Source: Clostridiales bacterium | GTDB taxonomy: Bacteria; Bacillota; Clostridia; Christensenellales; DTU072 | Reading direction: 5' to 3' | NCBI GenBank assembly: GCA_012800525.1 | Contig: JAAZJD010000019.1 | Coordinates: 1-51,324 of the forward strand | DNA length: 51,324 bases | In this document: positions 23,395-43,652 of the stretch, piece by piece | Layout: each line of letters opens with the position of its first letter | How positions within the stretch are numbered: the first letter of the stretch is position 1 | Program-made: the position numbers and the translations under genes | The notes under the pieces: generated by a model | Seen by the model: the letters and a program-made list of their open reading frames with translations, nothing else | What the model was told of the DNA's origin: nothing | Database searches by the model: none

Positions 23395-23425
23395 AAAAAA
23401 GATGTTACTGTTTAACATCTTTTTT
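23395..23425. terminator. Bidirectional terminator between galU and the giant gene
   Basis: AAAAAAGATGTTA (23395-23407) and TAACATCTTTTTT (23413-23425) form a perfect hairpin with a 5-base loop and A/T runs on both sides. It can end galU on the plus strand and the giant gene on the minus strand. Confidence 0.9.
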
Positions 23426-23462
23426 AAAGCCCAATATATAACATATCTTCTATTTCAAAGAT

Positions 23463-26400
23463 CTATTTGTATTTTTTCTTCTTGCGAATTAAGAAAAATA
23501 CAGAAGACAGTGCACCTAAACCAACTACTGAACCAAGAGTTATCCATATCCAATTAAGCTTTGCATCTTCTTTGATTAATAACTCAGCTCGATATTCTGT
23601 TGCTTCGTGTGTCTCGTCACCTAAATACTGAACTACCATTGTATATTTTCCTGCTTTTGTAGGCATCTTATCAAACATCTCACCGCTTGAAGAATAATAT
23701 TTGATAATTATATCATCAGAACCAACCATTCTTCCCTCTATTTCAGGGATAATAGAAATTGGTTTATTTAGATTTTGAGTTAACGGTCCTTTGAGTGTTA
23801 TTTTTGCTGGAGATTTTTGGACATTTAAATTCATTGTGCCTTTCACTATATAATTATTTTCAGCTAACCCTTCATATCTAGAATAGAATAAATCACTATC
23901 TGCTGGCACAAATACCCATTCATATTCTTCAACACGTGGGTCTAAAACCAAACCATCGACGAATTTAAATGTTCCTAAATCTGTACTTGCGGTAAGTGTT
24001 GGCATGTTTGCACCGAAAAACAATGTTTGAGTAATTGGGTCTGGCTCAATGTCAAATAAGGCCTTTTTAATAGTCATTTCAATAACTAGTCTTTGCTCTT
24101 TATGATTTAATTTAGAAATAACAGCCTCAACCATATATTTGCCAGGTTCAGTAAATAATGGAACCCCTTCATATCCTTCATAACTAAATGTATAAGTTGA
24201 ATCAAGCCCAGTTACATTTAGCAAATATCCTTCCCCTGTATAAGTTACAACTTTTTCAGCTTGTGTATATACTGGAAGCGTAGCTTTTTCAATTCTATAC
24301 CAAGGACTACTATTTACCATAATGTAATAGTTAGGATGATTTAAATTAATAAGCAATCTAAATCCGTTACCACTGTCTAGTGTCGCATTTATCCTATCTC
24401 CTTCAAAAGAAATAGTTGAGTTGGAACCTACTATTTGGTCAGTAGCTACGGTGCCTAAATATTCAAAATCAACTAATTTTATCCTACTATCATATACTAA
24501 ATACTCATCTGCATGGAAAATCACAAATACAACTGCTTTATCTATGTTATATTTAGTTTGCGATGTAGCTGTAACACTATAATTAGGGCCTGCCTGTATT
24601 CCAGCAATATTTATATTATGAATTCCTACATTATATTGACTTACATATATTCCACCTAAATAGAATTTATCACTAACATTTAATAGACCTGGTGATTTAA
24701 CATAAAGCTTTTTATTGTATACTATGTCTTCATCTACTGGTGTTGAACCACGGAATAACTTATATACTATTTTCTTAAAGTCAACTTCTATATTTTCTGT
24801 ATCATCTTCAAATTCTATTGTATTAGTTGCTGTATTTAATACACCTACTTCATTCATGAGATAAACATTTCTATTTGCAGTATTTATTATGTAAACAGTA
24901 CTTATCTCAATACCTCCAGCATCTTCATATGTATGATTATAGGTATATAATGATGGATACGGAAGTTGCACAAGGTTTGCTATTTGAACATATCCAATGT
25001 CTGATATAATAATTTCATGCTCGTTATAAACTGTATATTTTTGAGTATTATCAAGCCTTGCAAAAGATCTAGCTAAATCTATAACATAAGTCTTTCCGCC
25101 GATTATAGTTTTATATATATTTTGACCATAAACATTTTCTAATTCTGAAACATTAAATGTACGTGTGATTAAATCATCTGCGGTGAATACTAAAGTTTCA
25201 ACATTTAATCTAAACATTCTCTTTGTTTTATTAGAATTTGGTAAAACATTATATATAAATCCATCTGATGCAAATAGCATAAACAATGGAGTTTTACTAA
25301 CACCTTTAACTAAATCGTTATAATTGAAATACAAAGTTTCATATGCCCCATTGCCACCATCGATAGGCTTTCTTATCTCTCCTGCTGTTGTAAATATTTG
25401 ATATGTTGTTTGCAAGTTTTGAGTTTGCACAATCATTTGATCCAAATTAACTTTAAATGTTCTTTGTGAACCATCAATAACTACTTTATAGTCTCCATTT
25501 TGGCTTATATTTGCTGGATTAATTCTAATAGTATAAGTGTATCCGCTGTTATTCAATATACTAAAGAAATAGCCATCATTTATTTGACTAATTGCATAAT
25601 AATCTACTACTTCATTTTGCGTATAGGCTAGCATATTTATTGTATCTACAGTAAATAATCTCCTGGAGTTTTGAGCATATGCTTGATACACTGTTTCTTC
25701 GTTACCTACACTTACAAAATCATTTATCCCCACACCATTAGAAACATAGAAGAAACTATATTTTGTGGCATCTACCTTAAATGCTTTAAAATCTGGGAAG
25801 ACCATTTTTGAAGCAGTGTCTATTGTATAAGCAAAACCATTTTCTGTATAATACAATGAATTCGATAAATCATACTTGTCACCCTTAGCATTTCTCGCAT
25901 CAGAATAACCAAATATTTTAGCTCCCTCTTTTTCATATGAATAGTAGTATAGCAAAGATTTATCGTCAGCTCTAACACCATCAAAGGTCTTTCCTTGTCC
26001 ATACAATGCTTCAACCTCAATATCTAGCGCTTGAATTTTTATAGCCTTATTAAACACTTTTGTGTAAGATGAGAAGTTGTCATCTCCTTGTTTTTCTCTA
26101 TATTCAACTTGAACATCATATTCGCCAGCTGCAATTGGACGTTGTAATTTATATTCAATTTCTGTCGATTTTCTATATCTATATACTATCGTTCCTTTTG
26201 CCTCTCTCCCTTCAAGATTTGTAATAACAGCAACACTTGAAGGAACCTCTATCCCAGTATATGTATATGTAATACATGTAATATCTTCAGATAAACCTTC
26301 TAAGTTCAAAATAGGTCTTACATTTCGTATAATTAATCTTCCCACCTTTACCAAAGATACATTCGTATATATTGTCTCAGGTTCGGGCAAAATAGGTGCT

Positions 26401-29400
26401 TGGTAAGAAGCAAAGACTTCATACTCACCACTTTCTTCTGGATCTGTGACAATAACACCACCCGCTTTTTTATATTGTATACTTATGGCTTTGCCAGGTC
26501 CTTGATTATTATCTACAAGTGGAGGATTTTGGCCTCTACCAATTGCAACAACTTTAATAATTTGATGAACATTTTCACAGTCTTCATAAGCAATTGTAAT
26601 CGTTGAACCAGCAAATCCTTCGACTCTTAATTGAAGTGTTGGTTGAACTTTTTCAATAATCAATGCGCTTCCAATTTCATGCTCAAAATCATTGTAATTA
26701 TCCACAGCTTCTTGAGTATATGTCACTTTGACATCATAGGTACCCGGATATATTGGTAGAGTTCTTGCATAATCGCTTGAAGGTGCCCCAACCCCTTTAT
26801 AGTATAAAATGATATTTCCAGGCAAAGAATCTGTCTTCACGATTCCATTTTCCGTATAATTTTTGCCTACAAGATTAACTGTAACCCCTATACCACTTCC
26901 AGTAAATGGAGTTTGTTTTGTTTCATAAGTAGAAACTGTTGGATTTACCCTATTTATTATTAAGACATCATCATATATGATATCTTGGCTCATTTTGTAA
27001 TTATCATTTGTAGGAACATATTTTATGACAAGTTTATATGTTCCAGCATTTTTAGGCACCACAGGAGTTGCAGAACCCACAGGAATATATTGTGCAATAT
27101 ACTCACATTCGAGGGGTGGTTGGTGAGTATTTGGTTTTAGCAACCTAATTTCTGTTGAAAGAAAAGCTTTCGAATAACCATCATAATTTACTATTCTTGG
27201 CGAGGTGGTTGATGCAGCTAGCAAAGCCTCATCTTTATTATCATCATATAAATCATATTGCTCTATCGTTAGTAAGCCCAAGAAAGTTCTTGTTGTTTCA
27301 CGATAGTTTGAATCTGATGGGTCAAATGTAACTATAACATCATAAACTCCCACATTTATAGGGTGATCTACACTTACATCGCCTTTTTTATATGCGATGC
27401 TTATGTCATTTGCCTCTAATGTTCCTAGTTTCTCACTTGATGTATATCCTGTTATATCTCCAACTGGGTATGCCCAAGCTTGAGACCTATATGTATATAC
27501 CTTAGAAGTGGCCTCTATATAAACATCTTTTGGTGTTATTTCCAAAATGTCTAAAAATTCTTGCACCAAACTTGTATAATTACTAGTTGAATCTGCTGTA
27601 TATGTAATTTTTACATCATATCTATTCATTGATGTTGGCCATATTGAAGTATATGAACTAGGAGCACTTCCTGCTACCTTAAACTGGTAATCCGCTTTTC
27701 TAATTATTTCAGGATTGGGCATTGAACCTTCATCTATACCAAAAACTTGAGCACCAATACCTAAATCTGCTAAATCTAGCGGACCTTCTTTGTATTGCAC
27801 TTCGACACTGCCCATTTCTATTCTTGGTGCAACTTTTGTTATTTCAAGGATAAAATAGTCATCTATTGAAGGCATTTCTTCAGTCGTAGTTTTATAGTTA
27901 TCATTAATATCTGCCGTAAATGTAATCTCGACTTTATGCCTGCCGGCGTCGTCAGGAGCTCTCAAAAGCTTTGTTCCACCACTGCCATAATGCACATACC
28001 TAAATGAGAATTTTCCTGATACACCAGCATCAATTGGAACGCTCCCTCCCTCTAATCCTGAAACTTCTATACAAGCTAAATTAAAATATTCTTGTTTTGA
28101 TAAATCAATTTCTTTTCCAGTATAAACATGCTCCATTATATACTTGTCAGAACCAACTGTATTTCCAAAAGTAATTTGAACACTTGCTTTTGAGATTACA
28201 AGAGGAATAGTTATTTTAGGAATTACATAATTTACTGCATCACCTTCAGTAAGATTTACTAAATATGTGCCTACATCAGCAAATTGACCAACCAAATATT
28301 GAGTGGCGCCAGCATATGAGGGAGAATTTACCGATATATGTGGATTTATAGCAGTATTAGGTCCTGCAGAACCTAAAGTTCTATATGCATAGTTTATAAT
28401 TGGATGTTGATCTACGACACTCTTGTTGTCACTTCCAACAAAACCTCTATATTCTATCCTATATTTGAGACTTGGATTTTCTTCACCATAAGTTTTTTCA
28501 AGCTGACTAACCTCTATTTCTCCAACACTTAATACCACATAAGGTGTTAAGGTTTTTTTGGTAATTTGTATTTGCCCAAATTGATAACCTTCTGGAGCTG
28601 GGCTACCAGCTACTAGCCCGTTTAAAATGTTGTAGTTTGCGTATTTATCTCCTTGTTGAGCATCACTGAGTATCATGGGAATTGAAATCGAGCCAACCCC
28701 TGGCATTTCATCAGCAATAGTAAACGATAACCCAGATGAGAAGACATCTGTAGGCTCATCTTTATCTATGCGATTAGGATAAGCTAAGCCATCTACTATT
28801 TGAGCTCCAGAAGGACCATAAACCATTGTCTTATAGGTAAATAAAGGATGGAGCCGAACTAGAGTGTTTGTGTAATAAATACCATTATCTCCTCGGAAAA
28901 ATCCATATTCTAGTGAATGGTATATTTCTTGTGTCGTATCACCTTCTCTATAAAAACCACCAAACATTACAAATAAATCTCGTTTTTTAATGTTATATGT
29001 AACTTCCTTTTCAAAACTTACATAGGCCCTATCAATTTGCTCTGGATGCACAAAACCATCATGAGACATCGTAATGGTAACTGTTCCAGCATTCAATATT
29101 TTAAAATAATACGTGTTAGACCCAGCTACAAAACTTTCAAAATCTAATATAGCTGTATTTGATATTGCAATATTAAAATTATCGTTTCCATATGCTTGTG
29201 ATGCCAAATTTGGGAGAACATTAAAATTCGGATCACCGTATGTTTTCTCTAAATTGACTAATTGATTAGCACTGTCTTGACGCTTTAGGTAAACTCTTTT
29301 AGACTCAACCGTTGAACCTGCAGCTTGAGATATAGTTTTATAATTTCCATACATGTAGTACGGTAGACCTCCAACCAAGCCATCTTGTTGCCTTTCAGTT

Positions 29401-32400
29401 ATAATTCCTGCAGCATCATATTGTTCTGCAATTATTCTAATAACTCCATATTTATTTGATACAAATGAAATTTTAGCAGTTGTAATAGCATAGCCATCTT
29501 CTAAAACTACACTTTGATATACTATATTTTGATTTAAAGCTAAATCACTAGCAGCCCCTGTTTGTGGATTAACCACTCTAAATCTAACTTTTCTAGGCGT
29601 AGGGTATATTGCATTTGTCTTTCCTTTGACTATTATATGTCCTGGAGAAAAAGCATTAATTTCAAAATCAGCTCTTGCCGGAGCCTTTGTTTCAACTTTT
29701 AAGCTGGGATTATCACTTGATGGTGAAAGCAACAAATTAACGGTTTGCTCTGCAGGAACTATATTGAATGTGCGTATATAGTTTCCAGTGTAATTGCCTT
29801 TTCCTTCAATTGTAATTTTACCGCCTTTTAAAACTGAGACATTATAACCATTCTCATGTGGATCTGGGGCAAAATTTAAATAGTTAACTTGATAGTCTGT
29901 TCCTTCAACCAATACTGGGCTTCCTTCAAAAACCATGTTTTTCACTTCTAAAACTGCAGGGTTTATCGCCAATCCAGTATACCTATATCCAGTTCCTGTA
30001 TAGCCCGCCGTAGGAGTTTGATCTATTGTGACTTGGTATTCTGATGTCTTGTTAATATCTCTAGGTAAGATTGTAAATTTAAGCACATATTGTCCCGTGT
30101 AATTACCTTTTCCATGTATTGTCAACCTACCACCAGTATTTGGTTCTTCTTCATAAACTGGATCCCCCAAGAAATCAAACATGGGATCGCCGTTTTCATC
30201 TTCTTTTTGGATTAAAAGACCATTTGCATCTCTTTTTAATCCATCTCCAGCATTAATATTTGTTCCCCAACCAGTTATATAATAGTCACAAGGTGTAGCC
30301 TCTGAGCCAAGTACTAAAGTTTTAGCTGGAGTAACTACTTTTATCGTATTATTTGCATCAACTGGATGATTTGCCACTATTGAAAGATCATATATCTGAG
30401 AACCTATATATGTGACCGAATCTTTATATGCTCCCATAGTAGACCAATAAGTCTTTCCAATAATTTGAACATCTGGACTTGAAATATCCATTGGCAATAT
30501 TTCAAAAACCGCTTTTACTGTTCCAACAAAATTTCCGGAAATTATTCTAATTTTTATCCAGTTACCTTCCGTACCAGCTTCCATATTTGTGCCAGTATTT
30601 TCATCGCCTTCTAATATTTCAAATTGTGCCCTTGGATTACCATTTGGCCAATTCTCATCATAATCGGGATCTTCTGGATCTGACGGTCTAATAATATTTG
30701 AAATGGTAAAAGTTTTTGACTGCAAAGGAGCAGTATTGTCATAAGGATAGCCTGACATCCTTGGTATAGTGCTTGATATAAAAGTTATACTAAACTCATC
30801 AACTTCTGGAATTATTTTATTCCCAGTATATTCTTCTGAAGGTAAATAAATTGATGCGATGATATCATCGTTTACTTGTCTCCTTAGCACCTTAAAGTTT
30901 TCACTTATGTAACTAGAATAGTTACCAATACCAGTAACTGTCACAACAGCACCAGATGTAACATAGCCATCTTCATCAAAGCTAACCTCTTGATTGTTTG
31001 AATATGAAATTTGATAATCGACACCAGGAGATAAAGTATAACCGTCATCTGTCACTGTTACATTTGGAATTTCAAGTTGTGCTCCATTGTAAATTACATC
31101 AGATGGTATAAGTGGATTAGAGCCTTGAGTTCCTACTTTTGTTGAAGTAGAAAAAGCTTTAGGCGATATATCAAACCCTAAGCGTATCTGTCCCCTAAAC
31201 ATGTAGTTATATTTTTCGTCTGATAAACTTGCATTTGAATTAACTTGAAAAATCATGTAATTTCCAGGAGTGCTTGGATATGGAAGTGAATTTTTAGTCC
31301 AAGATGTAAGATCTGGGTATTCAAGAAGATTTCTTTGGATATAAGTTAAGTTATCCTTAACATGTATATTCGTACCTAAAGTATATGATGCAGAAGTGTC
31401 TTCAAAAAAACCATCATATAACGTCCCGCTTGGGGTATGGGAGTTTTTAGCAAATGTGTATACTCTTATTTCATCTACAGGCTGATACCTTATAAGTTCT
31501 TCATTCTCATAAATAGGCAACCAAGCTTTTACCACATCATAAACCTTTATTTCCGTTGGAATCACTATTTGAGGCTGTTGATTTGGGTTAAATATTTTGG
31601 CCATTGTTGTATATTTTGAAATCTCAGCCGTAGCGGTATTTAAATTTCTAGGAATTATCTCATATTTAACTGTAAATTGCCCTGAAAGATTTTGATTTGC
31701 CGCTATTTCGATTTGAAAAGTTCCATAAATCTTTTTATTAACACCATCTTGATACCATTTGTAAGAGTTATAATCAATTTTATATCTTGCCGCTACTGCC
31801 CAGTTAGAAGCCGTCTCTGGATTTGTTGAATCATTTTCTAAAGCAGCACTTAGCTCTCTATAGGCATCATAAGAAACGCCACTGTATGTCGCTCCAGTTG
31901 AAAATGGGGAGCTTACTCTATCCTCATTATACTGATCATTTTCTATCAAGAAAAATCTTTGATTCATTACACCAGCACCACTTGTAATCGAGTAATTGCT
32001 CCAACCAAGTCGTAAGTATGAAACATTTGGTCTAGGGAAATCACCAAGACCATAAAGACCCCCTGAAACATCTCTATCATACATTTGAGTATTATGAAAT
32101 GCCGCAATTTCAGTGGCAACTTTTTTACTTCCAGTTTCTCCCGCTCTTTCACCTACTTGCTCTAAAATATCATCGCTTCCACCACTTATTTGCAAGCAAT
32201 TAATGTTGAAGTAAGTCAAAGCATTTGCTGTGAAATTCTTAGTCCCAGATACCCTCAATGATGGCTGAGGGTTTCCAATATAATAAGCATTAACATTGTT
32301 TGAATATAAATATGAGGATGCTAAATAATCAGTACCTCTAGTGAGTTTATAACTTCTAGTTTGATCGCTAGTAGGTCTATTACCATCATAAAAATCGAAA

Positions 32401-34025
32401 TACAGTTCTGCTGGATCTGGTTTATGTTGCCTTCCATTATATTCATATACAAATGAACTCAAAGATTCATCATCGAATTGACCACTTGCCAAAGAAACTG
32501 GAGTAATTTGAAAATTCAACAACATGTTAGAACTAAGTAACTGTGCACTTGTAGTTCTATAACGTATTTGACTTAATAACCTATATTGCCCTACTTCACT
32601 AGGCTCATTGACTGTTGCACCAGTTGGTGAAGGTGTAGTATCGAATGGAGTAGCATCTAACTTGTATATATATGATTTATCCGGATCTCCAAATTCGACA
32701 TTTCCTGCAACAATTTTTTTAAATTTGCCATTTTCCCATACCTTAACTGCAGGGCCTTGAGGGACAGAAACAAAATTGTTTAGCTCATCTTGTTTATATA
32801 AAAACAAGTTTTTTTGAGAGGAGTGTGGCGGAGGCATTCCCTGCCATTCTGACCAAGTAATACTAATCTCTACAGTATCTGAACCATATGTATGAGTTCC
32901 AGCAGTCGTATTTGATGGTGAGAAAGAAATCAAAGTTAAGCCTTGATGATATGCGGGGTTTAGGGTATTTCCATCTCCTGTTTGAAAAGAGTCTCCTGGA
33001 TTTGCTGCAACATATGACCGAGTAAATTTATCAAAGATCATAAAAGATGTATCCATACTTGACTGCCAATTCGTTTTTACACCGATATTAAAAGATGAGC
33101 CAAAACCCATAGCATGTCCTGCTCCTAATAAATTTGCTTTTTGAGCGTCAGATAACCCTGAAATATTATATTCCAAACCAGCCTCTTTTTCAGGTCCAGA
33201 AAAGTCTGTAAGCTTCACTACAGGAGCTTGATAATTTACTTTAATTGAAGCACTACCAAAACTACTAGCTAATAAATTCGGATTTTGACCTGCCATACCA
33301 AAAGTACCTGTGGCAACTTTTCTAAATTGCAAGACATACCCAACAATAACTTCACCTTTATCCTTAAACCCGATAGTCCTATTAAATGTGTGGTTGAGTG
33401 TATTCGTAGCAACAGCGCCCTTAGTCATTGAAGATGTATTTTCGCTACTATTATATACCTCACATTGAGCACCTTGGATTATAGAGAGCAAAGCACCAGG
33501 CCCCAAGTTTTTAGGAATTATTAATGCAAAAGCCTTTACTCCCATTGTTCCAGTATTATAAATAAATTTTGGTTGCGAAACAGAAGCTGAAGTTGCACTA
33601 ACATTTATGCTGCTTATGTTACCCGCGGTCATTGCACTAATTATTTCATTTGACAATTTAAACCTAGCATATAGCAAATATGTATAATTTTGAGCTGGTT
33701 TAGATGCAGTAAATTCTTGATCAAGAGCCATTTCAGTGCCGCCTGCAAAATATATACCCATATTACTTGAAGTGCTTATCGGTTGAGTTACGGTTTGATC
33801 AACATTGACAATAGATGTTTGAGAACCTGCTCCCCCATTGATTGGTCTAAAATTTTCACCGCTATAACCTGAAACAATATTTTCAGGAAGTGTTGCAGCA
33901 TCAGCCTTTATTTCTGAATTCAAGCTAGCAAAAGCAACAAACATAACAAACAAAAGCAAAATAAAAATAACTGCCTTTGTTAGTTTTGCTCGGTTATTTA
34001 ATTGTGTCATAACTTTGTTTTTCAT
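23463..34025 (-). CDS. Giant membrane-anchored surface protein with Ig-like and MBG/YDG-like repeats
   Basis: This 3520-residue protein has a signal peptide (AVIFILLLFVMFVAFASL, cleavage near ADAA at about 43) and a C-terminal membrane helix (about 3490-3512) followed by RKKKKYK. There is no LPXTG motif, so it should be held by the membrane helix. Repeats in order: GxGNYxGxYxxxFxI units near 1035, 1310 and 1415; MBG-type units opening KTYGDPNF (about 1595) and KTYGEENPSLKY (about 1855). About seven more Ig-like units follow at about 2040-2680, each ending NY/NF...ILEITK-P or similar. A distinct stretch at about 2680-3065 has repeated Y-T-I-D-like motifs, and further Ig-like units precede the anchor. 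Such proteins usually bind host or bacterial surfaces. It lies 228 bp downstream of a second giant gene on the same strand. The Shine-Dalgarno is weak. Confidence 0.9.
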   Translation of the reverse strand: MKNKVMTQLNNRAKLTKAVIFILLLFVMFVAFASLNSEIKADAATLPENIVSGYSGENFRPINGGAGSQTSIVNVDQTVTQPISTSSNMGIYFAGGTEMALDQEFTASKPAQNYTYLLYARFKLSNEIISAMTAGNISSINVSATSASVSQPKFIYNTGTMGVKAFALIIPKNLGPGALLSIIQGAQCEVYNSSENTSSMTKGAVATNTLNHTFNRTIGFKDKGEVIVGYVLQFRKVATGTFGMAGQNPNLLASSFGSASIKVNYQAPVVKLTDFSGPEKEAGLEYNISGLSDAQKANLLGAGHAMGFGSSFNIGVKTNWQSSMDTSFMIFDKFTRSYVAANPGDSFQTGDGNTLNPAYHQGLTLISFSPSNTTAGTHTYGSDTVEISITWSEWQGMPPPHSSQKNLFLYKQDELNNFVSVPQGPAVKVWENGKFKKIVAGNVEFGDPDKSYIYKLDATPFDTTPSPTGATVNEPSEVGQYRLLSQIRYRTTSAQLLSSNMLLNFQITPVSLASGQFDDESLSSFVYEYNGRQHKPDPAELYFDFYDGNRPTSDQTRSYKLTRGTDYLASSYLYSNNVNAYYIGNPQPSLRVSGTKNFTANALTYFNINCLQISGGSDDILEQVGERAGETGSKKVATEIAAFHNTQMYDRDVSGGLYGLGDFPRPNVSYLRLGWSNYSITSGAGVMNQRFFLIENDQYNEDRVSSPFSTGATYSGVSYDAYRELSAALENDSTNPETASNWAVAARYKIDYNSYKWYQDGVNKKIYGTFQIEIAANQNLSGQFTVKYEIIPRNLNTATAEISKYTTMAKIFNPNQQPQIVIPTEIKVYDVVKAWLPIYENEELIRYQPVDEIRVYTFAKNSHTPSGTLYDGFFEDTSASYTLGTNIHVKDNLTYIQRNLLEYPDLTSWTKNSLPYPSTPGNYMIFQVNSNASLSDEKYNYMFRGQIRLGFDISPKAFSTSTKVGTQGSNPLIPSDVIYNGAQLEIPNVTVTDDGYTLSPGVDYQISYSNNQEVSFDEDGYVTSGAVVTVTGIGNYSSYISENFKVLRRQVNDDIIASIYLPSEEYTGNKIIPEVDEFSITFISSTIPRMSGYPYDNTAPLQSKTFTISNIIRPSDPEDPDYDENWPNGNPRAQFEILEGDENTGTNMEAGTEGNWIKIRIISGNFVGTVKAVFEILPMDISSPDVQIIGKTYWSTMGAYKDSVTYIGSQIYDLSIVANHPVDANNTIKVVTPAKTLVLGSEATPCDYYITGWGTNINAGDGLKRDANGLLIQKEDENGDPMFDFLGDPVYEEEPNTGGRLTIHGKGNYTGQYVLKFTILPRDINKTSEYQVTIDQTPTAGYTGTGYRYTGLAINPAVLEVKNMVFEGSPVLVEGTDYQVNYLNFAPDPHENGYNVSVLKGGKITIEGKGNYTGNYIRTFNIVPAEQTVNLLLSPSSDNPSLKVETKAPARADFEINAFSPGHIIVKGKTNAIYPTPRKVRFRVVNPQTGAASDLALNQNIVYQSVVLEDGYAITTAKISFVSNKYGVIRIIAEQYDAAGIITERQQDGLVGGLPYYMYGNYKTISQAAGSTVESKRVYLKRQDSANQLVNLEKTYGDPNFNVLPNLASQAYGNDNFNIAISNTAILDFESFVAGSNTYYFKILNAGTVTITMSHDGFVHPEQIDRAYVSFEKEVTYNIKKRDLFVMFGGFYREGDTTQEIYHSLEYGFFRGDNGIYYTNTLVRLHPLFTYKTMVYGPSGAQIVDGLAYPNRIDKDEPTDVFSSGLSFTIADEMPGVGSISIPMILSDAQQGDKYANYNILNGLVAGSPAPEGYQFGQIQITKKTLTPYVVLSVGEIEVSQLEKTYGEENPSLKYRIEYRGFVGSDNKSVVDQHPIINYAYRTLGSAGPNTAINPHISVNSPSYAGATQYLVGQFADVGTYLVNLTEGDAVNYVIPKITIPLVISKASVQITFGNTVGSDKYIMEHVYTGKEIDLSKQEYFNLACIEVSGLEGGSVPIDAGVSGKFSFRYVHYGSGGTKLLRAPDDAGRHKVEITFTADINDNYKTTTEEMPSIDDYFILEITKVAPRIEMGSVEVQYKEGPLDLADLGIGAQVFGIDEGSMPNPEIIRKADYQFKVAGSAPSSYTSIWPTSMNRYDVKITYTADSTSNYTSLVQEFLDILEITPKDVYIEATSKVYTYRSQAWAYPVGDITGYTSSEKLGTLEANDISIAYKKGDVSVDHPINVGVYDVIVTFDPSDSNYRETTRTFLGLLTIEQYDLYDDNKDEALLAASTTSPRIVNYDGYSKAFLSTEIRLLKPNTHQPPLECEYIAQYIPVGSATPVVPKNAGTYKLVIKYVPTNDNYKMSQDIIYDDVLIINRVNPTVSTYETKQTPFTGSGIGVTVNLVGKNYTENGIVKTDSLPGNIILYYKGVGAPSSDYARTLPIYPGTYDVKVTYTQEAVDNYNDFEHEIGSALIIEKVQPTLQLRVEGFAGSTITIAYEDCENVHQIIKVVAIGRGQNPPLVDNNQGPGKAISIQYKKAGGVIVTDPEESGEYEVFASYQAPILPEPETIYTNVSLVKVGRLIIRNVRPILNLEGLSEDITCITYTYTGIEVPSSVAVITNLEGREAKGTIVYRYRKSTEIEYKLQRPIAAGEYDVQVEYREKQGDDNFSSYTKVFNKAIKIQALDIEVEALYGQGKTFDGVRADDKSLLYYYSYEKEGAKIFGYSDARNAKGDKYDLSNSLYYTENGFAYTIDTASKMVFPDFKAFKVDATKYSFFYVSNGVGINDFVSVGNEETVYQAYAQNSRRLFTVDTINMLAYTQNEVVDYYAISQINDGYFFSILNNSGYTYTIRINPANISQNGDYKVVIDGSQRTFKVNLDQMIVQTQNLQTTYQIFTTAGEIRKPIDGGNGAYETLYFNYNDLVKGVSKTPLFMLFASDGFIYNVLPNSNKTKRMFRLNVETLVFTADDLITRTFNVSELENVYGQNIYKTIIGGKTYVIDLARSFARLDNTQKYTVYNEHEIIISDIGYVQIANLVQLPYPSLYTYNHTYEDAGGIEISTVYIINTANRNVYLMNEVGVLNTATNTIEFEDDTENIEVDFKKIVYKLFRGSTPVDEDIVYNKKLYVKSPGLLNVSDKFYLGGIYVSQYNVGIHNINIAGIQAGPNYSVTATSQTKYNIDKAVVFVIFHADEYLVYDSRIKLVDFEYLGTVATDQIVGSNSTISFEGDRINATLDSGNGFRLLINLNHPNYYIMVNSSPWYRIEKATLPVYTQAEKVVTYTGEGYLLNVTGLDSTYTFSYEGYEGVPLFTEPGKYMVEAVISKLNHKEQRLVIEMTIKKALFDIEPDPITQTLFFGANMPTLTASTDLGTFKFVDGLVLDPRVEEYEWVFVPADSDLFYSRYEGLAENNYIVKGTMNLNVQKSPAKITLKGPLTQNLNKPISIIPEIEGRMVGSDDIIIKYYSSSGEMFDKMPTKAGKYTMVVQYLGDETHEATEYRAELLIKEDAKLNWIWITLGSVVGLGALSSVFFLIRKKKKYK

Positions 34026-34079
34026 TCCAAATAAGTATCACTCTTAAATTTTATCTTTTATATATTTATAACATTTTAT

Positions 34080-34105
34080 ACGCGACAAGTCCATACGGAC
34101 TTTAT
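34080..34105 (-). promoter_or_regulatory. Small palindrome in the leader between the giant genes
   Basis: AAGTCC and GGACTT form a 6-bp hairpin with a four-base loop (around 34088-34103), next to CGCG. It lies about 60-80 bases before the start of the 3520-residue gene. AT-rich -10-like sequences follow on the minus strand. No long T run is present, so an operator or processing site is as likely as a terminator. Confidence 0.3.
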
Positions 34106-34141
34106 ATTTTCACTTTCAATTCAACATAAACTTAAAATACA

Positions 34142-34230
34142 ACGCATAAATATCTACATTCTCATAGAAAATAGCATCAAATAAACTTTTTCTAACATTA
34201 TGCAATCGTTTACAACATTAATTTATGCGT
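34142..34230. repeat. 10-bp inverted repeat after the 3132-residue gene
   Basis: ACGCATAAAT at 34142-34151 faces ATTTATGCGT at 34221-34230, just after the stop of the upstream giant gene. A similar TATATGCGTAA occurs in that gene's own promoter region (about 43725-43735). Confidence 0.35.
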
Positions 34231-34253
34231 CAACACTCCTTTTGCCAATTTAA

Positions 34254-37200
34254 CTAAGGTGAAGAAGGTGATTCTTCAGCTGGATAATTACCGATACGAT
34301 ATAACCTATTATCTAGTTGCGTACCATTTTTGTATATAATGCCTGCATCTAAAGGTCCTGCTTCAGGGGGTGCTTCTAAAGCCACTTCAAGTAAACCTAT
34401 CAAATATCCAGCGCTGACATATGAACCGTTTGCTACGGCATATGATACTGTTACAAATCTATTTGCAGAAGCTAATAAAAGTGAAACTCTATCCTCAGTT
34501 GCAATACCCATTATTCCACCCATAATAGTTTGATTTGCAAATATATTCAAAACCTCAATGTTTACAGTATTTGCCTTTACTTCCAATCCATAATTTTTCC
34601 CAACTATAGAGCCCGCTACTACAGTAGCATTAGGAGCGAATATACTTATTATGCCTGAAACAGTGACACCAATAATATAGCCTGTTGAGTAGTTTTCTTT
34701 AGCAACTGCTCCAAATAATATTAGGTTATCATCATCAGTTTCTAGCACATAGTTAACATCAAGTTGGAGATTAAAAACACTACCTGCATTGATATTAAAT
34801 AACGGAGCTGTTAAATTATTGATCCTTTTATTATTGCCGTTTAAGTATCCATTAAACGGCTTTTGGGAACCCAAAGAATTAAAATCATTATTATAACTAT
34901 CATCAATTACTCCATCTCCATCATAATCTCCAATGGTTATATCATTAGCTAACACAAAATAAGCATTCATATTATTTGCAATCGCCAAAAGATCTTTATA
35001 GTTTTTAATTTGATATGGATTTTCAGCAGTTCCAAGACCTTGGGTTAATCCGAAATTTGATATTCTCGCAAGATGCCTTTCCATAGTCATTGAATATTCA
35101 CCTATTGCAAAAATTGTAGTGGTTGTTTTCACTCTCTCTCTTGAAGTTTCTGTTAATGACAAAAATTCCTCATGAACTGCGCTATCAAATAAAGTTCCTT
35201 TATTTTCTTTTTTCCGAACGTTATTAACATACAAATCATCATTAATTAATCTAATTGCTCCTACCTCTATAGCACCTGACAAGCCTCTTCCTATAAACCT
35301 TCCAAATTTTGATGCAACAGTTGAGTTTATATTTAGGTTAGATGTAAATATTATAGAACTCATATTTGTAGCGCCTCTAACCTCAGCAACTAGCCCCCCT
35401 ATCAAAGACCTTTTTGAACTTAAAATATTTATCGCAATCGCACTAACAACATTGTTAATTTTTCCATTATCTGCTATGCCAACAACACTGCCAGCAATCG
35501 CATCTTCAGCTTCCTCTACTGTGATTATACCACCAATATGAACATTACTAATTTCCGCTCCTGGAAGCATTAAACCTGTTATTCCACCTATAATAACTTG
35601 TCCAGTATTAATAGATCTAAGGTTTAAGCCTTTGATTGTTAAATTGCGAACCTTTCCTCCCAAAATATTAAATAACCCTAAATATGTGGATTTACTTGTG
35701 AGAATACCGCTTAGATTTAAGGTAAAATTACCACCATCATAACCACCTACAAATGAACTAGACGTTAACAACGAAGCATACTCGCCGCCTGATTCACTTA
35801 AAGCGTATAAATCTAAATCTAAATTTCTAGTTTGTCTGTAATATGCCCATGGTATAAGTGAAACTATATGTAATTTACTTGCACTATCAATTATTAGTGG
35901 AGAACCTGATGTTCCATCCCCTACAAGCTCAAGACTTTCTTTTAATTGTACAATTCTATATAAAATAAGTTCAGCTACACTCTTGCTCCTAAAACTTGCT
36001 AAAGATCTTATAATTTGAGTTGTATCTATCATAAGTTCATCAATTGATTTTTCGCTAAAATCTAAACGTTTATCCGTTGATAGAGAATAGTCATTGCCTG
36101 TACTTAGTCCAGATTGAACCTGACCATTAATACTTGTGCTAAACTTTCTTATAAAGTTTTCAATCTTAATGATAGTTGGCATATTAAACTCTTGATATCC
36201 GATTAAGCCACCTATATAATTTTCAGGAGATGTGGCACCTTCTTCAGCAAGATTTAAAATATTTTCTGCCAATATTTGTCCGGCAAAATATGTATTTATC
36301 ATATAACTATCTTTTGATTTACCTATAATGCCACCGACTGAGCCAGTTCCTGAAACTTTATTTATAACTACATCGACCACACTGTTTGCTATTAAAGAGC
36401 TTTCTGCATAACCAATTAAACTACCAACATTCGATTCCACATTATTTATATTGATTTGACCTATAGCGTAAGAATATATAACCATGCTATCTTTAGCTTT
36501 TGCTGCAATATGTCCATAATTAATTATATCTTGTGATATCGAAACATTTAAATTTATCCTAACATTTCTAATTTTAGCTCCATCTAATTCTGTAAAAAAG
36601 CCACCATAAGATTCGTCCTGAATAAGTAAAACATTTCTATAGCCTAACTCAAAACCATCACCATCATAAACTCCCTTGAATACAAAACTTGCCCCACTTC
36701 CGTCTGAAACTAAATCTGTGCCTTCAGCATTTAAAAATTTACCAAGTTCTGGGAAAAGTCCAACTGGGAAAAGCAAATTTTGAGTTTGCCTAAAATATGC
36801 ATTATACCTTATGGCACCACCTACAGGATTTAAATAATTATATGGATCGTATGTATCGTAGTCTTCCTTATATTTCATATACAAACCTATAGAATAAAAA
36901 TCATTGACATTATTTATGAGATATGGCGAAGCATATGTGCCTTTTCCTGCAAAATAATTAACTTTAATGCCTTTTTTGGCAGAGTCTATGATAAAGTCAC
37001 TAGCTCCTTCAAAAGCATGTTCAAAGCTGATATAATAACTTCCAATTTCTGTTGGCAATTCTGATAAGTCGTTTTCATTTTCATCAAAATATTTAGTCTC
37101 TATTCTGATGCATGGTCCCTCATATGTTTCACCGACTAATTTTAGCGGTCCAAAAACTGATATAAAATCTAAATCCGTTGTTTCAAATCTTGTTTCCTGC

Positions 37201-40200
37201 AAATTAGAGCCATCTTGAATGTGTCTTTCAGGATTTATAATTGAAATAGGCAATAGCCTGTAATATTCAATGTTTAAAATAACATCTTCGCCTGTAATCT
37301 TAAAAGTCATGTCTGTCCCAATCTTGCCTATTTCTTTTGTTCCTTTTTCTTCATCGGCCTTTTCAAAAGTTTGATTTACCACATTTGGATCACCGTAGTT
37401 ATATGTAATAGACTTATAAAAATAATTGGGCTTTGGTGTTACAGAAATAAATGGAACACTAGCACCTCTTCTTACACTAAAGACATTATTTGTAAGTGTA
37501 GAATAAGCCGTCCCTTGAATACCTGAAACACTTTGAGTAATGCTTGCAACATATATTGCTTGATCAATTTTTATATGTAAAGCTGGTTCATCTTCATAAA
37601 TTTTGTTAAGTCCATTTGGTGCTTCAACTTTGATACTATACTTAAAGTCTGAACCACCTTTTGCACCTTGTGCATTTAAATCTGAAATATAAAACTTGCT
37701 AGACACTAAAGTTATAGGTTGCCATTCCCCATATTCACCAGCCTCTGGAGCTTTTTTACGCACATAATATTTGTATCCACTATAAAAATCAACATTACCT
37801 GGATTGGCAACTGTTAGTGTTATCGCTGCTCTTGTTAAATACCATCCATCAACCATTGGTTGATTTGCAAATTCAGGTGCTACAGAATACTGATAGAAAG
37901 GAGTGACTAAACTTTGCCAAACATTAAATATAGTGCTTTCCTCTTGTTTTCCTGTAGCATTTGTCACTATAATACTAAACCTTTTTTGTCTTAAAGTTCC
38001 AGCTGCAGGAAGCGAGACAGTTTTTGTGTCATTTATATCAGTCCACGTGCTTGGAACATTGTCCTCTCTGATTTGAATTGAAGTTATTGGACTTATGCTA
38101 CCCTCAGATTTAGAAAAGCTCAAAATGACTTCCTTATTTGTCCATTGACCAGAAAGATAGGATACATCTCCATCTACTACCCCTACAATTTGTGGAGATA
38201 TGTTATTTTTATCAATTTTAACTGTAAAGCCTGTGTTATAATATGTGGCTTTTGAAGGGACATGAAGACTTTCTAACTTAAAAAATGCCTTCTTATTTTG
38301 TGTTACATTTGCTCTATATGTAAAGTTTTGTGTTGCACTTGAAATAGTTCCTATTTCCACCCAATTCAAACCTTCAGCAAATTCATCAGCAAATGCAATA
38401 TATATACTTTTAGCACTAGGACCTGAAGACAAAGCAAGTTTTATGTCTACATCTTTATTAGTCCATGCACCAGTATATGAAACTGTATCACCTACGATAT
38501 TACCAGTGACATTAAAATTGACTACTTCGATATCTTTTTTAGCCTTGATATTAATTGAAAGTTCTTTATATACACCAGCACCAGTTGTTAGTCTTAATCT
38601 TGTATATGTCTGCACTTGACTTTCTGAAATGAGCATTTCAAATGTTTTTGCAGGCTCATCAATATTAAATTTTTGTTCGGTACCGTTTATAAGCAAAGCT
38701 CTACTATAATTTGCAAAACCTTGACGCATAAAATCAACATAAAGACCACTGGGGCCAAAAGCAGTCGCTCCGCTTAAATATGCATACTTAAGTTTTAAAG
38801 AAATAGATTCATCTTCTTCAAGCCAACGATCTGCATAAGGCGCATCTGGCTCTCCTTCTTTTTTTATAACACTTTCAAATTCAGAGATTTCAAAAGCATC
38901 AAATTTATCAATCATAGAAGTGAAGTCCTTAATAGCTTCGTTACCTGCTTTATCTATAACCATAATCCTATAACTATAGTATCCTTCAAAATCTATGAAT
39001 TTTAAACTTTCATTTGTTTCATGATTTTTTAATTCAACACTAGTTACATTAACAAAACTTGTATCTGGTGCTGTAACATCTTTCTTAAACAAATATATTT
39101 GATTAACTTTGGACAAATCATCGATAAAAGAAAGATCCATTCTGCTATTTGATGATGTCCAATTTGTGGTAAAATCAAAACTTACTCCATTAGAAGTTTT
39201 AGAAACTTCCATTATAGTTGGATTTGTTTTATCAATATTTACATATGCCGTGCCTTTTGCTTTAATAACATACTCAAAACCAGCACCCGTTTTTAAAACA
39301 AAACCTACATTTATACTCATAGCATCCATATAATATTTGCTGACAACTATTTTTCCTTGATTATAATGACCTGGGTTATAATTTGGATCAACATCACCTA
39401 TTTCAGATTCATCTTGAGCATATATGCTTGCTATCAATACATCGCTAGAAATAACACTGGTTTGATAAATAAATATTCCACTTGCAGGGATTTTATTAAC
39501 CCTAAACAATAACCTTACATATTCATTACTCCATTCATGTTGTCCAAAATTATATACTGTTGAAGGTACTACAGTTTGATCATATTCGTTATTTGGATTA
39601 CCTCCACCTTTATAGCCCTCAAAAGAAATGTTTTCACTGCCAAAATTAACACCATCTACTTTATATTTATTAAGTTCGCTTAAAGTATTAATTTCAGTTA
39701 TATTGCCAGCAACATCCACTGCCTTAACATATAACGGTAAGCTTGAAGTTACCGTAAATGTAAACTTATTACCTTCACCAGCCGTAGCCTTTGGAGTATT
39801 TATGTCTTCAATGTCAGGGAACTTCCCAAAATCATACCAAACATTTAAAATACCAGACCTATACAAACTATTTTCTGGTTGCTCAACCGTCATTTCCATA
39901 TTAATAGGAGAAGCAGACCATACATCTGTACCTGATGGAAGAGATATATTTAAGGGTGTTTTATCTATATCTATTCTTCCGTAGCTAAACTCTACAAAAG
40001 TGCCTAGCTTATCTGATGGGCTTACCATATATTGAAAAACTTCATTTATTATTCTAAAGCTGTATGTAGAACTTTCACCAGCAGGTGCCGTTGTTAGAGG
40101 GAAGGTTTTAGATAATGAATTTTTGCCAGTATAAATATCTAGATTACCTTCAAAAGATGTCATGAAATCCATCCATTCGCCTTCAGCTTTTTTATACTGA

Positions 40201-43200
40201 ACTTTTAGCTTTGATGTACCACCTAAAAGATTAAAATCAAATTGCAAATTTTTGTTTATCCAATTTTTTGTACTACCTGCCCCCGGATTATATACCTCAC
40301 GATTATTACCATCATCATAATACCAACCTTCGAAATCATCTGCAGAAATAGTTGTAGACAAATCAGTTTTATCTATGTTAATTGTAAAATTCTGTTTTGC
40401 AGATTCATTACCTGCATTATCTTTTACATAAACTTGATATTGCATCGAAGCGCCTTCATTTGTCGTGTTAAATTTTAAAATGTTATTTTCAATCAAAATT
40501 GATGCAGCATCATGACTTCCAGTGATAAAAACATTTGAAGTTGTAATCCCAGAACCAAGCTCATTAAGGCTAAAGCAAACTTGCACATCACTTTTATACC
40601 ATTTATTTGGTATATCTGTTCTAACGACACAAGTTGGTATCGACTTATCAACTTTCACATTATATGCATCATCCAATGTTTTCTCAACCTTTGTTCCACT
40701 TTGGATTTTGAAATAAAGATCTTTATCTAAAAATGTATTTTGTGGCACATTTATATAAATGTCATACTCTTTTCCGGTGCCACCTAAATTACCACCCACT
40801 AAACCACTAGCATCTTTATATGTACCAGATGCACCTTCTTTGTATAAAACCTTTATGCCAGAATCACCATGGTCAAGGGTTACTCTTATAGCAAAATTGC
40901 TATTTGTCCATTGACCCCATTGATGTGCACCAAGAGGAGTAAGAGTGACATTGCTTGGAGTTTTTTGATCTAATTTAGATGTATAAGCAATCTTACTTTC
41001 TGCAACAACTTTGTATTCTGTACCACCATAATTTTGCGTCTCCCCATATGTTGCATGAACAGCGATAAAATAATATATTTTAATTCTTGAAGTATCTGGA
41101 GTTACAGCGGGAGTAAATTGAATTTTACATCCTGTTGCATTTTGTATTGTCCCAGTAATTTCATTAAAAGTAGCTTTCTCATCATCTGAATAATAATATT
41201 TTGTTAATCCACCAGTTCCAACATTATTTGCGATTAAACCTACTATCTCACTAGACGAAAAACCAGTATCAGGATTCTTATTTTCCACATGCTCTTGTGT
41301 AGATACTATATTGGCTCTATTGACTTTAATGCTTAATGTCCTTTCACCAACTTCAAAGGTATCATCAGGGCTTGGAGAAAGTGTTAAATATATTTTGTAC
41401 TTTGCCTCATGTGTTCCTACTGCTATGGGTAAATTGGCTTGAGGGTCTCCTGTACCATTGACATAATATGCAGGAGCATCATTGGATATAAAGGCTCCAA
41501 CCATCGATTCATTGCTGTATCTAACCTCAATTGATCCTTGGTTACCAGTATAATCCATCACATACTCATTATAATCATCTGGCTCCTCTACGCCTAAATG
41601 CGCTGTAATATCACGAATAAAGTTTACCTCAAATTGTCCTCTAACTTCTTTTTCAACATCTAAATTTTCAGTAGTTTTGACATCTTTAAAATAATAATCA
41701 AAACTTTGATTTGAACCTCCAGAATTTCTGAAAAACTTTCTATCTACGCCATATTCAACTTGAGAAACTCCAAGGAAAAAATAATTTCCTGAAGTGTCTT
41801 CAAAATTGATATTTATTGAAAGTTTTAACACACCGTTTGTTAGTGTAGCCCCTTCCTCCAAATTATTAACGACAGTTGTATCGATTTCATCTGTATATGT
41901 AAATGAAAATTCTGCAGTCCTTTTAGGTATTAATTCTCCAGCATCATTATTTAAGACAACAAGACTCATGCCATCTACAATATTTAAATTGAAATAACCA
42001 TAAACTGTGTTGTAATTTTCAGTATCCGCAGGGACATATCTCACATATTGCCTATTTTGTCCAAGTGTTGAAACTTTTACATCGGGTTCCATCGTATCGG
42101 GTCTAATAAACACATCATCTGCTGAAACAATATCTGCTGAACCACTTGCACTTCTGACAAAATTAAAAACACCACCTGCTAGTACTGCCCCAAGATAGGT
42201 AGCCGATCTTTGCAGATTCAAAGAAGATAAAGATTTCCCAAAATACATTTCCGCAGAATTTGCAGATGTTAATATGACTTCTTCTCCACCCAAAAAAATA
42301 GAAAACTTTAGTTCAGGATTTGCCTTAACTATAGTAAATAATTTTGTCAAAATTATTGAAATTTTATTATCAGGATATCCTCCCCCAGCACTAGGAGAAC
42401 CTAAGGTAACTTGTACTTCATATTTATATTCCCCTACTTTTGTAGGTTTCAAACCAGCTTCTTGCCCTTGGCCATATAAAGTACCATCTTCTAAGTCTTC
42501 ATAAGTTTCTATTAAACCTACATGAAAACTTGTTGCAGACTTATCACTAGGCTGTACAAATAAAGCTGGCAGCAAAGGATTGGTAGGCCTATAGGCTATT
42601 TCCTCATAATTGTTTTGGAATGTTATCAGCCTATATGTTGCTCTATAATACACAGTTACCCCTGTTTGGACTTCTTCAAGAAAGTTTGAATAAAGATATT
42701 TTTGTTTAAAATCTCCTCCTCCGACATGGCCAGATAAAGAAGTCCAACCTATAAACAAGTATTCCCTATCATCAGATACACCTTTTTGAGCCTCAAATAT
42801 TGGTTTGTTTAAAATGTTATCAAAGAAATCTGGATCTCTTTGAGCGAATATGAAATCTATTTCAAAAGGTATACTTTGTCCAGTTGGAACATTATATGTT
42901 TGATCTTGGAATAAAATCTTCCCTGCACCAAGGTCCACTCCTGCTACCGCAATATTTACTTTAAGTTTTTCAAACTTTAGTTTAAACACTATACTTGTTA
43001 TGCTCGTTAAAATTTTAACGCCTGTTTCATGATTTCCTGGCATTGAAGGTTCTTTGATAGCAGAAGCACTTGAACTAACTTCAATTTTAAGTGAATTTTC
43101 GAGCATTAATGCATTATTTAATAGTAAATCAGAAACAATTTTATAATTTTCAAAATTCCCTTCTAAATTTGATAAATTTCTTGTCACATTATGACTTGGT

Positions 43201-43652
43201 ATTTTAAACTCAGATTTGACATTCGATTCTAGTACACTTGAAATCCCAAAATTTTGCGTCCAAACACCATTTTCTAAAATTTCAATTTTATTTGTTCCAC
43301 TTATTTCAATATCAACTTTTAGCCTTCTATTCCTTATCGCATTTTGCAATTGTGGGTCCGAGAAATTAACATTAGTTGAACCAGCTAGTGCCTTATACAA
43401 AGACAATGGATTTGCATCATTACTTTCCATAAGCTGAGAACCCTCAAGTTTTATAGTTGCACCACTTAATAAACCAGTAGTCCAACCAGCACTAAGTTTA
43501 TCTGTGTTTAATTCTCCATTAGTAAACTCTACCTCATTTGCAAACGCAACAAAACTAGAACTTCTAAAACTAACAAAAGCAATGATGAAAATTCCAATCA
43601 TTGCAATCATCAGTAAAATTTTATTTAATTTTTGCTTTCTTAAATTCGTCAT
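34254..43652 (-). CDS. Giant secreted protein with Ig-like domains and GLUG-like beta-helix end
   Basis: This 3132-residue protein has a signal peptide (ILLMIAMIGIFIIAFVSF, cleavage after AFA near 38) but no C-terminal membrane helix or sorting motif; it ends in an acidic Pro/Ser tail (PAEESPSSP). The first part includes an InlB-repeat-like segment near 305 (FIGWTSL...VYYRATYRL). Residues about 900-2000 hold many Ig-like units marked by VKDNAGNxS and INIDKTxP. From about 2238 come three modules opening GKGTYASPYLI, GDGTSGSPLII and GLGTAENPYQI (about 2238, 2580, 2870). Each is followed by GLUG-like repeats such as VGGIIGKS and IGGLIGY, typical of right-handed beta-helix adhesins. A DGDGVIDD stretch could bind calcium. 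It is transcribed before the membrane-anchored giant, suggesting a surface pair. The Shine-Dalgarno is weak. Confidence 0.9.
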   Translation of the reverse strand: MTNLRKQKLNKILLMIAMIGIFIIAFVSFRSSSFVAFANEVEFTNGELNTDKLSAGWTTGLLSGATIKLEGSQLMESNDANPLSLYKALAGSTNVNFSDPQLQNAIRNRRLKVDIEISGTNKIEILENGVWTQNFGISSVLESNVKSEFKIPSHNVTRNLSNLEGNFENYKIVSDLLLNNALMLENSLKIEVSSSASAIKEPSMPGNHETGVKILTSITSIVFKLKFEKLKVNIAVAGVDLGAGKILFQDQTYNVPTGQSIPFEIDFIFAQRDPDFFDNILNKPIFEAQKGVSDDREYLFIGWTSLSGHVGGGDFKQKYLYSNFLEEVQTGVTVYYRATYRLITFQNNYEEIAYRPTNPLLPALFVQPSDKSATSFHVGLIETYEDLEDGTLYGQGQEAGLKPTKVGEYKYEVQVTLGSPSAGGGYPDNKISIILTKLFTIVKANPELKFSIFLGGEEVILTSANSAEMYFGKSLSSLNLQRSATYLGAVLAGGVFNFVRSASGSADIVSADDVFIRPDTMEPDVKVSTLGQNRQYVRYVPADTENYNTVYGYFNLNIVDGMSLVVLNNDAGELIPKRTAEFSFTYTDEIDTTVVNNLEEGATLTNGVLKLSININFEDTSGNYFFLGVSQVEYGVDRKFFRNSGGSNQSFDYYFKDVKTTENLDVEKEVRGQFEVNFIRDITAHLGVEEPDDYNEYVMDYTGNQGSIEVRYSNESMVGAFISNDAPAYYVNGTGDPQANLPIAVGTHEAKYKIYLTLSPSPDDTFEVGERTLSIKVNRANIVSTQEHVENKNPDTGFSSSEIVGLIANNVGTGGLTKYYYSDDEKATFNEITGTIQNATGCKIQFTPAVTPDTSRIKIYYFIAVHATYGETQNYGGTEYKVVAESKIAYTSKLDQKTPSNVTLTPLGAHQWGQWTNSNFAIRVTLDHGDSGIKVLYKEGASGTYKDASGLVGGNLGGTGKEYDIYINVPQNTFLDKDLYFKIQSGTKVEKTLDDAYNVKVDKSIPTCVVRTDIPNKWYKSDVQVCFSLNELGSGITTSNVFITGSHDAASILIENNILKFNTTNEGASMQYQVYVKDNAGNESAKQNFTINIDKTDLSTTISADDFEGWYYDDGNNREVYNPGAGSTKNWINKNLQFDFNLLGGTSKLKVQYKKAEGEWMDFMTSFEGNLDIYTGKNSLSKTFPLTTAPAGESSTYSFRIINEVFQYMVSPSDKLGTFVEFSYGRIDIDKTPLNISLPSGTDVWSASPINMEMTVEQPENSLYRSGILNVWYDFGKFPDIEDINTPKATAGEGNKFTFTVTSSLPLYVKAVDVAGNITEINTLSELNKYKVDGVNFGSENISFEGYKGGGNPNNEYDQTVVPSTVYNFGQHEWSNEYVRLLFRVNKIPASGIFIYQTSVISSDVLIASIYAQDESEIGDVDPNYNPGHYNQGKIVVSKYYMDAMSINVGFVLKTGAGFEYVIKAKGTAYVNIDKTNPTIMEVSKTSNGVSFDFTTNWTSSNSRMDLSFIDDLSKVNQIYLFKKDVTAPDTSFVNVTSVELKNHETNESLKFIDFEGYYSYRIMVIDKAGNEAIKDFTSMIDKFDAFEISEFESVIKKEGEPDAPYADRWLEEDESISLKLKYAYLSGATAFGPSGLYVDFMRQGFANYSRALLINGTEQKFNIDEPAKTFEMLISESQVQTYTRLRLTTGAGVYKELSINIKAKKDIEVVNFNVTGNIVGDTVSYTGAWTNKDVDIKLALSSGPSAKSIYIAFADEFAEGLNWVEIGTISSATQNFTYRANVTQNKKAFFKLESLHVPSKATYYNTGFTVKIDKNNISPQIVGVVDGDVSYLSGQWTNKEVILSFSKSEGSISPITSIQIREDNVPSTWTDINDTKTVSLPAAGTLRQKRFSIIVTNATGKQEESTIFNVWQSLVTPFYQYSVAPEFANQPMVDGWYLTRAAITLTVANPGNVDFYSGYKYYVRKKAPEAGEYGEWQPITLVSSKFYISDLNAQGAKGGSDFKYSIKVEAPNGLNKIYEDEPALHIKIDQAIYVASITQSVSGIQGTAYSTLTNNVFSVRRGASVPFISVTPKPNYFYKSITYNYGDPNVVNQTFEKADEEKGTKEIGKIGTDMTFKITGEDVILNIEYYRLLPISIINPERHIQDGSNLQETRFETTDLDFISVFGPLKLVGETYEGPCIRIETKYFDENENDLSELPTEIGSYYISFEHAFEGASDFIIDSAKKGIKVNYFAGKGTYASPYLINNVNDFYSIGLYMKYKEDYDTYDPYNYLNPVGGAIRYNAYFRQTQNLLFPVGLFPELGKFLNAEGTDLVSDGSGASFVFKGVYDGDGFELGYRNVLLIQDESYGGFFTELDGAKIRNVRINLNVSISQDIINYGHIAAKAKDSMVIYSYAIGQININNVESNVGSLIGYAESSLIANSVVDVVINKVSGTGSVGGIIGKSKDSYMINTYFAGQILAENILNLAEEGATSPENYIGGLIGYQEFNMPTIIKIENFIRKFSTSINGQVQSGLSTGNDYSLSTDKRLDFSEKSIDELMIDTTQIIRSLASFRSKSVAELILYRIVQLKESLELVGDGTSGSPLIIDSASKLHIVSLIPWAYYRQTRNLDLDLYALSESGGEYASLLTSSSFVGGYDGGNFTLNLSGILTSKSTYLGLFNILGGKVRNLTIKGLNLRSINTGQVIIGGITGLMLPGAEISNVHIGGIITVEEAEDAIAGSVVGIADNGKINNVVSAIAINILSSKRSLIGGLVAEVRGATNMSSIIFTSNLNINSTVASKFGRFIGRGLSGAIEVGAIRLINDDLYVNNVRKKENKGTLFDSAVHEEFLSLTETSRERVKTTTTIFAIGEYSMTMERHLARISNFGLTQGLGTAENPYQIKNYKDLLAIANNMNAYFVLANDITIGDYDGDGVIDDSYNNDFNSLGSQKPFNGYLNGNNKRINNLTAPLFNINAGSVFNLQLDVNYVLETDDDNLILFGAVAKENYSTGYIIGVTVSGIISIFAPNATVVAGSIVGKNYGLEVKANTVNIEVLNIFANQTIMGGIMGIATEDRVSLLLASANRFVTVSYAVANGSYVSAGYLIGLLEVALEAPPEAGPLDAGIIYKNGTQLDNRLYRIGNYPAEESPSSP

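Follow-up and report, generated by a model that had tools for sequence, protein, structure and literature searches.

Fibrillar adhesins and fibrillar adhesin-like proteins, as the available parts of their descriptions present them (PMC8286594, PMC9210967), are very long surface proteins in which a stalk projects an adhesive end. The Giant1-5 cluster of Apilactobacillus kunkeei, which is carried by a small genome, is a run of consecutive genes for extracellular proteins of 3000 to 8000 amino acids with signal peptides and beta-solenoids; some neighboring giants co-diverge, and the proteins are thought to be loosely attached (PMC12863079). The Csc clusters (Siezen et al. 2006, PMC1534035) are Gram-positive clusters encoding secreted surface proteins only, anchored and unanchored, for which complexes have been proposed. 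In its general design, the locus that we describe here works like the fibrillar adhesins and resembles the other two systems. How unanchored giants are retained at the surface of Gram-positive bacteria that lack sortase is largely an open question.

The window, that is, the whole stretch of DNA analyzed (51,324 nucleotides), is an entire contig (C83) of a draft genome of 1.78 Mb that is 95% complete. An earlier, sequence-only reading had proposed that nearly 40% of it is spent on two giant open reading frames (ORFs) following each other in the same direction, here called P1 and P2. We recovered both, in that order on the minus strand and with the coordinates below; together they occupy about 20.0 of the 51.3 kb (39%).

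34254..43652, minus strand: P1 gene; 3132 amino acids, 345 kDa, secreted, without a C-terminal anchor
43539..43652, minus strand: P1 signal sequence (residues 1-38) as read from the sequence, with AFA|NE as the likely cleavage site; A.A kept in the P1 alignment
41283..43652, minus strand: P1 N-terminal region (1-790), confined to P1s from the clade that carries P2
42318..42791, minus strand: P1 module, residues 288-445, common to the P2 N terminus (hhalign)
36993..41255, minus strand: P1 Ig-like stalk, residues ~800-2220; common to paired and solo P1s
34257..36980, minus strand: P1 C-terminal region, residues 2225-3132, with three right-handed beta-helix (GLUG-type) modules (AF2, Foldseek, profile match)
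34026..34253, minus strand: P1-P2 intergenic gap of 228 nt, lacking terminator-like sites when read from P1 to P2
23463..34025, minus strand: P2 gene; 3520 amino acids, 391 kDa, membrane anchored
33897..34025, minus strand: P2 signal sequence (residues 1-43) as read from the sequence, with ADA|AT as the likely cleavage site
32493..33122, minus strand: P2 module, residues 302-511, homologous to P1 288-445 (profile comparison)
23586..32168, minus strand: P2 stalk of tandem Ig/MBG-like domains (Pfam, alignment, AF2, fold matches)
23484..23555, minus strand: P2 C-terminal transmembrane helix and short basic tail (AF2 helix at 392-415 of the modeled segment; kept in 12 orthologues)
23394..23426, no strand: hairpin with A/T flanks between P2 and the convergent galU; -12.3 kcal/mol, z -4.3

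The first protein had been described as a secreted, anchorless beta-helix/Ig protein, and this description holds. P1 opens with a signal sequence that reads as Sec type; the window copy has a Big_13 Ig-like match at the curated Pfam cutoff, and its orthologue in G003 has an InlB-like Flg_new_2 match above the cutoff and a Glug motif below it. Our AF2 models cover the C-terminal regions, residues 2225-3132 of P1 and 3100-3520 of P2. The P1 model (15 sequences, pLDDT 75, pTM 0.66) consists of stacked beta-strand coils in three blocks, and the beta-helical structure 3n6z was matched by the same region both in profile comparison (E = 8.7e-14) and as the best Foldseek hit of the model (E = 2.8e-5). 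Tail hydropathy was 0.0 to 1.1 across all P1 homologues whose C terminus is seen, versus 2.0 to 2.9 for P2, so that P1 is without an anchor in every lineage, including those that have no P2. Pfam searches of the window copies and orthologues found no cell-wall-binding domain in P1, and an NCBIfam search gave no match above the cutoff. We also considered a frameshift concealing an anchor at the P1 end and rejected it, since no reading frame past the stop runs on into an anchor and P1 ends are conserved.

P2 likewise has a signal sequence of the Sec type, as read from its residues. The MBG_2 match of the window copy scores 19 bits, below the 25-bit Pfam cutoff, and that of the G016 orthologue scores 25.5 bits, above it. 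The AF2 model of residues 3100-3520 is a string of beta-domains with a helix at positions 392-415 of the segment. With the basic tail, these results bear out the earlier description of the second protein as an Ig/MBG protein with a membrane anchor. Anchoring of P2 by sortase was rejected: no LPXTG motif lies near its end, and searching the 95% complete genome for a sortase gene yielded none, with a control that was positive in three known genomes. Given this result, we take the P2 tail to be most likely a simple membrane anchor.

Co-transcription of the two genes is plausible, because a search between P1 and P2 in the reading direction found no terminator-like site and a strong hairpin, likely a bidirectional terminator, follows P2. 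Promoter-like sites near P1 and P2 were no more frequent than in shuffled sequences. Elsewhere in the window, a 54-nt unit is repeated 2.8 times at 22248-22396, in the gap between a phosphotransferase-like gene and galU, and a 39-nt in-frame repeat encoding PPQEMPFNPNMQR-type units lies at 17530-17654 in the gene of a putative membrane protein whose tail is long and hydrophilic.

We then looked into how well the pair is conserved, searching for P1 and P2 in relatives and in 40 genomes of the family, extracting the regions and calling their ORFs. In all 13 loci where the gene after P1 is visible, the window's included, P2 follows P1 on the same strand at a distance of 12 to 406 nt; these loci belong to genera g1, g2, g4, g5 and g11. 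Four of these loci (in G001, G026, G028 and G062) are seen in part, with P1 and/or P2 running off the contig, and G010, in which both genes lie at contig ends, was left out of the count. The outer neighbors vary by genus: g1 and g11 have a convergent galU, g4 has a sugar-isomerase-like gene downstream, and g5 has other genes. P1 and P2 orthologues align colinearly over their full lengths, with identities to the window copy of about 25 to 38% in the C-terminal regions compared. Because colinear orthologues at this level of identity keep the same order in 13 loci, the arrangement is not due to chance. The adjacency check proposed by the sequence-only reading thus came out in favor of the pair across five genera with changing outer neighbors.

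Distances among P1s and among P2s were also correlated after SecA was removed (partial r = 0.63 to 0.93, seven genomes, without a control surface protein). Segment-specific co-evolution, tried as a pointer to the interface, was uninformative, as all segments correlated alike in the seven genomes. Among 297 genomes of the order, only this family gave strong matches to P1 and P2, and among 391 genomes of the class the matches outside the family were partial ones to the P1 beta-helix (about 110 bits). The named relatives are metagenome-assembled genomes from sources that include sheep and goat colon, and Candidatus Stercoripulliclostridium merdipullorum. These results indicate that the P1-P2 linkage is well supported, that P1 and P2 form a co-inherited, probably co-transcribed surface pair, and that this system is restricted to a single uncultured family of clostridia, which includes Candidatus Stercoripulliclostridium. 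In one g4 genome (L176, G061:C26:20383-25509), P2 is split into two ORFs, likely by a frameshift or a gap.

P1 also occurs alone. Solo P1s were found in g6 (G005 and G013) and g9 (G014, G025, G027, G029 and G058), and P1 is without a following P2 in one genome each of g3 (G017) and g10 (G021). The sequence-only reading had held that homologues regularly found alone would refute a two-partner pair, and this applies in part: P1 stands alone in the genomes just listed, but elsewhere all 13 observable loci are paired. No P2 orthologue was detected in the g6 and g9 genomes, where the best matches were short MBG stretches of at most 67 bits, versus 448 to 616 bits in g1, g4, g5 and g11. Neighbors of the solo P1s include an rsmA-like gene, which adjoins P1 in G005, G013 and G029 and also in G008 and G020 (the downstream side of the last two is not visible), and a response regulator and histidine kinase, which P1 precedes in g6 and in G014 and G058. 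Like the paired ones, the P1s that lack a following P2 in g6, g9, g3 and g10 are unanchored. P1 is evidently maintained without P2 in g6 and g9, and P2 is therefore not required for P1 to exist.

In the P1 tree, the genera branch at the base in the order of the SecA tree (g9 first, g6 next, all others after), and the P2-bearing clade lies nested. Because the two trees agree in their basal order of genera, P1 looks vertically inherited, and the simplest reading of the sequences is that P2 would have joined it later; alternatively, P2 may have been lost in g6 and g9. Two observations stand beside this distribution. One locus (L171, G033:C102) has P1-like matches whose frames are broken, which may point to a decayed P1 or a faulty assembly, and g3 has several P2-like anchored giants (L078 and L079, G011:C68 and C81), two of them in tandem on C68.

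Paired and solo P1s differ at the front. In profile comparison, the homology of solo P1s to paired P1 starts at about residue 800 and runs colinearly through the end (E = 1e-107 for g9 and 1e-144 for g6), and the front region of about 790 residues is missing from the solo P1s; their own N termini did not significantly resemble P1N or P2N. The P1N model (residues 1-790) matched only the P1s of the P2-bearing clade and the P2 of G001, whose front aligns to model positions 7-503 (E = 1.9e-23). Within this region, P1 288-445 and P2 302-511 are homologous to each other (hhalign probability 98.5, E = 1.8e-15; second run 98.4, E = 5.7e-15). In the window's genome, the profiles of this module matched nothing but P1 and P2, and across the family they matched these two best; they also matched some other giants in g2, g3, g4, g7 and g10, with hardly any matches in g6 and g9. 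The module is thus not exclusive to the pair and may be a general N-terminal domain. The co-occurrence of the N-terminal region with P2 amounts to one evolutionary contrast, not many independent ones. As judged from these comparisons, the N-terminal module common to both proteins offers the best clue as to how P1 and P2 might associate. The P1 tail, which had earlier been put forward as the contact site, is not favored, as it is also conserved in solo P1s, whereas the N-terminal region tracks P2.

The anchored protein had been suggested to display the unanchored one. The parts of this suggestion that stand are that the pair is kept, that P1 is unanchored and P2 anchored throughout, and that P1 has the P2-related module only in the lineages that have P2; against it are the solo P1s, which are unanchored too. 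Our tentative proposal, which we consider quite possible though short of probable, is that P1, a beta-helix protein without an anchor, acquired an anchored partner together with a related front region, whereby P2 may hold P1 on the surface. Both proteins would be exported by Sec, and P2 would be retained in the membrane by its C-terminal helix and would project a long Ig/MBG stalk, placing its N terminus far from the cell. The N-terminal region of P1, with its P2-like module, would bind noncovalently at the distal part of P2, leaving the P1 beta-helices directed outward, for glycans, host material or other cells. We infer from sequence the P1-P2 contact, its geometry, the ligand, the adhesive function and the co-transcription. 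A fuller version, a two-piece stalk, seems to us rather unlikely: a new adjacent anchored giant would have recruited a formerly free beta-helix protein to the surface, P1 would have acquired an N-terminal region akin to the tip of that partner, and the two 3000-residue proteins would assemble tip to tip via homotypic modules.

The main rival to display by P2 is that P1 and P2 are two independent giant adhesins that are co-expressed, sharing a locus through common regulation, with the module a common domain of this family's surface proteins. We regard this as possible, if doubtful. It is in keeping with the further giants with related domains in the window's genome, with the presence of the module in some other giants, with the tandem giant genes known in A. 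kunkeei (PMC12863079), and with a third giant downstream of P2 in some g4 genomes. This third giant, on the same strand in L054 (G012), L058 (G018), L175 (G060) and L176 (G061), has open frames of about 3070 to 3420 amino acids and a transmembrane tail in G060 and G061, where the end is seen. However, independence fits less well with a P1-P2 order held at about 30% identity while the outer neighbors differ, and with a P1 N-terminal region that tracks the presence of P2.

P1 could instead be a released or matrix protein that P2, with a surface role of its own, does not retain. This would suit a protein that is unanchored in every lineage, P2-less ones included, in a genome where no sortase was found and with no cell-wall-binding domain by Pfam, and the giants of A. 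kunkeei do occur in cell-free supernatant and are considered loosely attached (PMC12863079). Yet release leaves both the conserved adjacency and the P2-linked N-terminal region unexplained, and we think it unlikely. A single ancestral giant broken into P1 and P2, or an assembly or frameshift artifact behind the stop between the two, is suggested by their adjacency, single direction and related N termini. Each has its own signal sequence, however, and there are stops in the gap; moreover, 13 assemblies show the two-ORF layout and conserve the P1 end, and solo P1s end at the same place, which makes this reading extremely improbable.

The family offers a natural comparison, in that sister genera have the same P1 with or without an anchored neighbor and a single defined front region sets the two forms apart; the partner-binding hypothesis is therefore directly testable with fragments. 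More generally, this uncultured gut and digester family spends a large share of its small genomes on giant surface proteins. In the same genome, outside the window, an uninterrupted frame of 11286 codons (L219/L220, G000:C85:33559-67416, minus strand) takes up about 1.9% of the genome; its product has a signal-like N terminus and no C-terminal transmembrane tail, and query A1 matched a GLUG-like stretch near its end.

Broad GLUG-motif and MBG-domain searches of open-access full text returned no account of the pair, and we compared it with known systems feature by feature. Two-partner secretion (TpsA/TpsB) does not describe it: P2 is an Ig/MBG string with a transmembrane tail and without a POTRA or barrel match in Pfam, and the relatives are Clostridia. 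Nor does the LPXTG class of sortase-anchored surface proteins, given the P2 end and the genome described above. Csc clusters differ in using WxL domains and cell-surface anchors of their own (PMC1534035), and P1 and P2 had no Pfam match to WxL or Csc-family domains up to E = 1 (window copies) or 0.1 (orthologues). With the GLUG beta-helix proteins (3n6z, IgA1-protease-like), P1 has the helix alone in common; the HExxH site of the IgA1 metalloprotease is absent from P1 and P2, and a protease role for P1, considered on account of the resemblance, was rejected for that reason. As the defining features of these four groups were tested and found absent, we did not file the pair under any of them.

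The closest solved folds to the Ig-like string at the P2 C terminus are the GhpA grappling-hook protein of Aureispira and the Sap S-layer protein, at low TM-scores of about 0.2 to 0.3 that denote a general Ig-string resemblance, not membership. By architecture, the A. kunkeei giants have an N-terminal SRRP-like solenoid, long rods and an SH3b-like C terminus (PMC12863079), whereas P1 has Ig stalks and C-terminal GLUG beta-helices and P2 has a transmembrane anchor. Pfam identified no known adhesive domain in P1 or P2 (window copies and orthologues), and the beta-helix is no more than a candidate. As far as the available parts of the accounts of fibrillar adhesins go, the tandem stalk domains in a very long secreted protein that mark fibrillar adhesin-like proteins are present here, as Ig/MBG-type domains in proteins of 3132 and 3520 amino acids; P2 fits the stalk part, and P1 combines a stalk with a putative binding end. 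The differences from these adhesins, within the same accounts, are that P1 is without an anchor and that two proteins form a fixed pair; P2 does have a surface anchor, its transmembrane tail. The P1-P2 system is a variant of giant fibrillar surface proteins rather than a new class.
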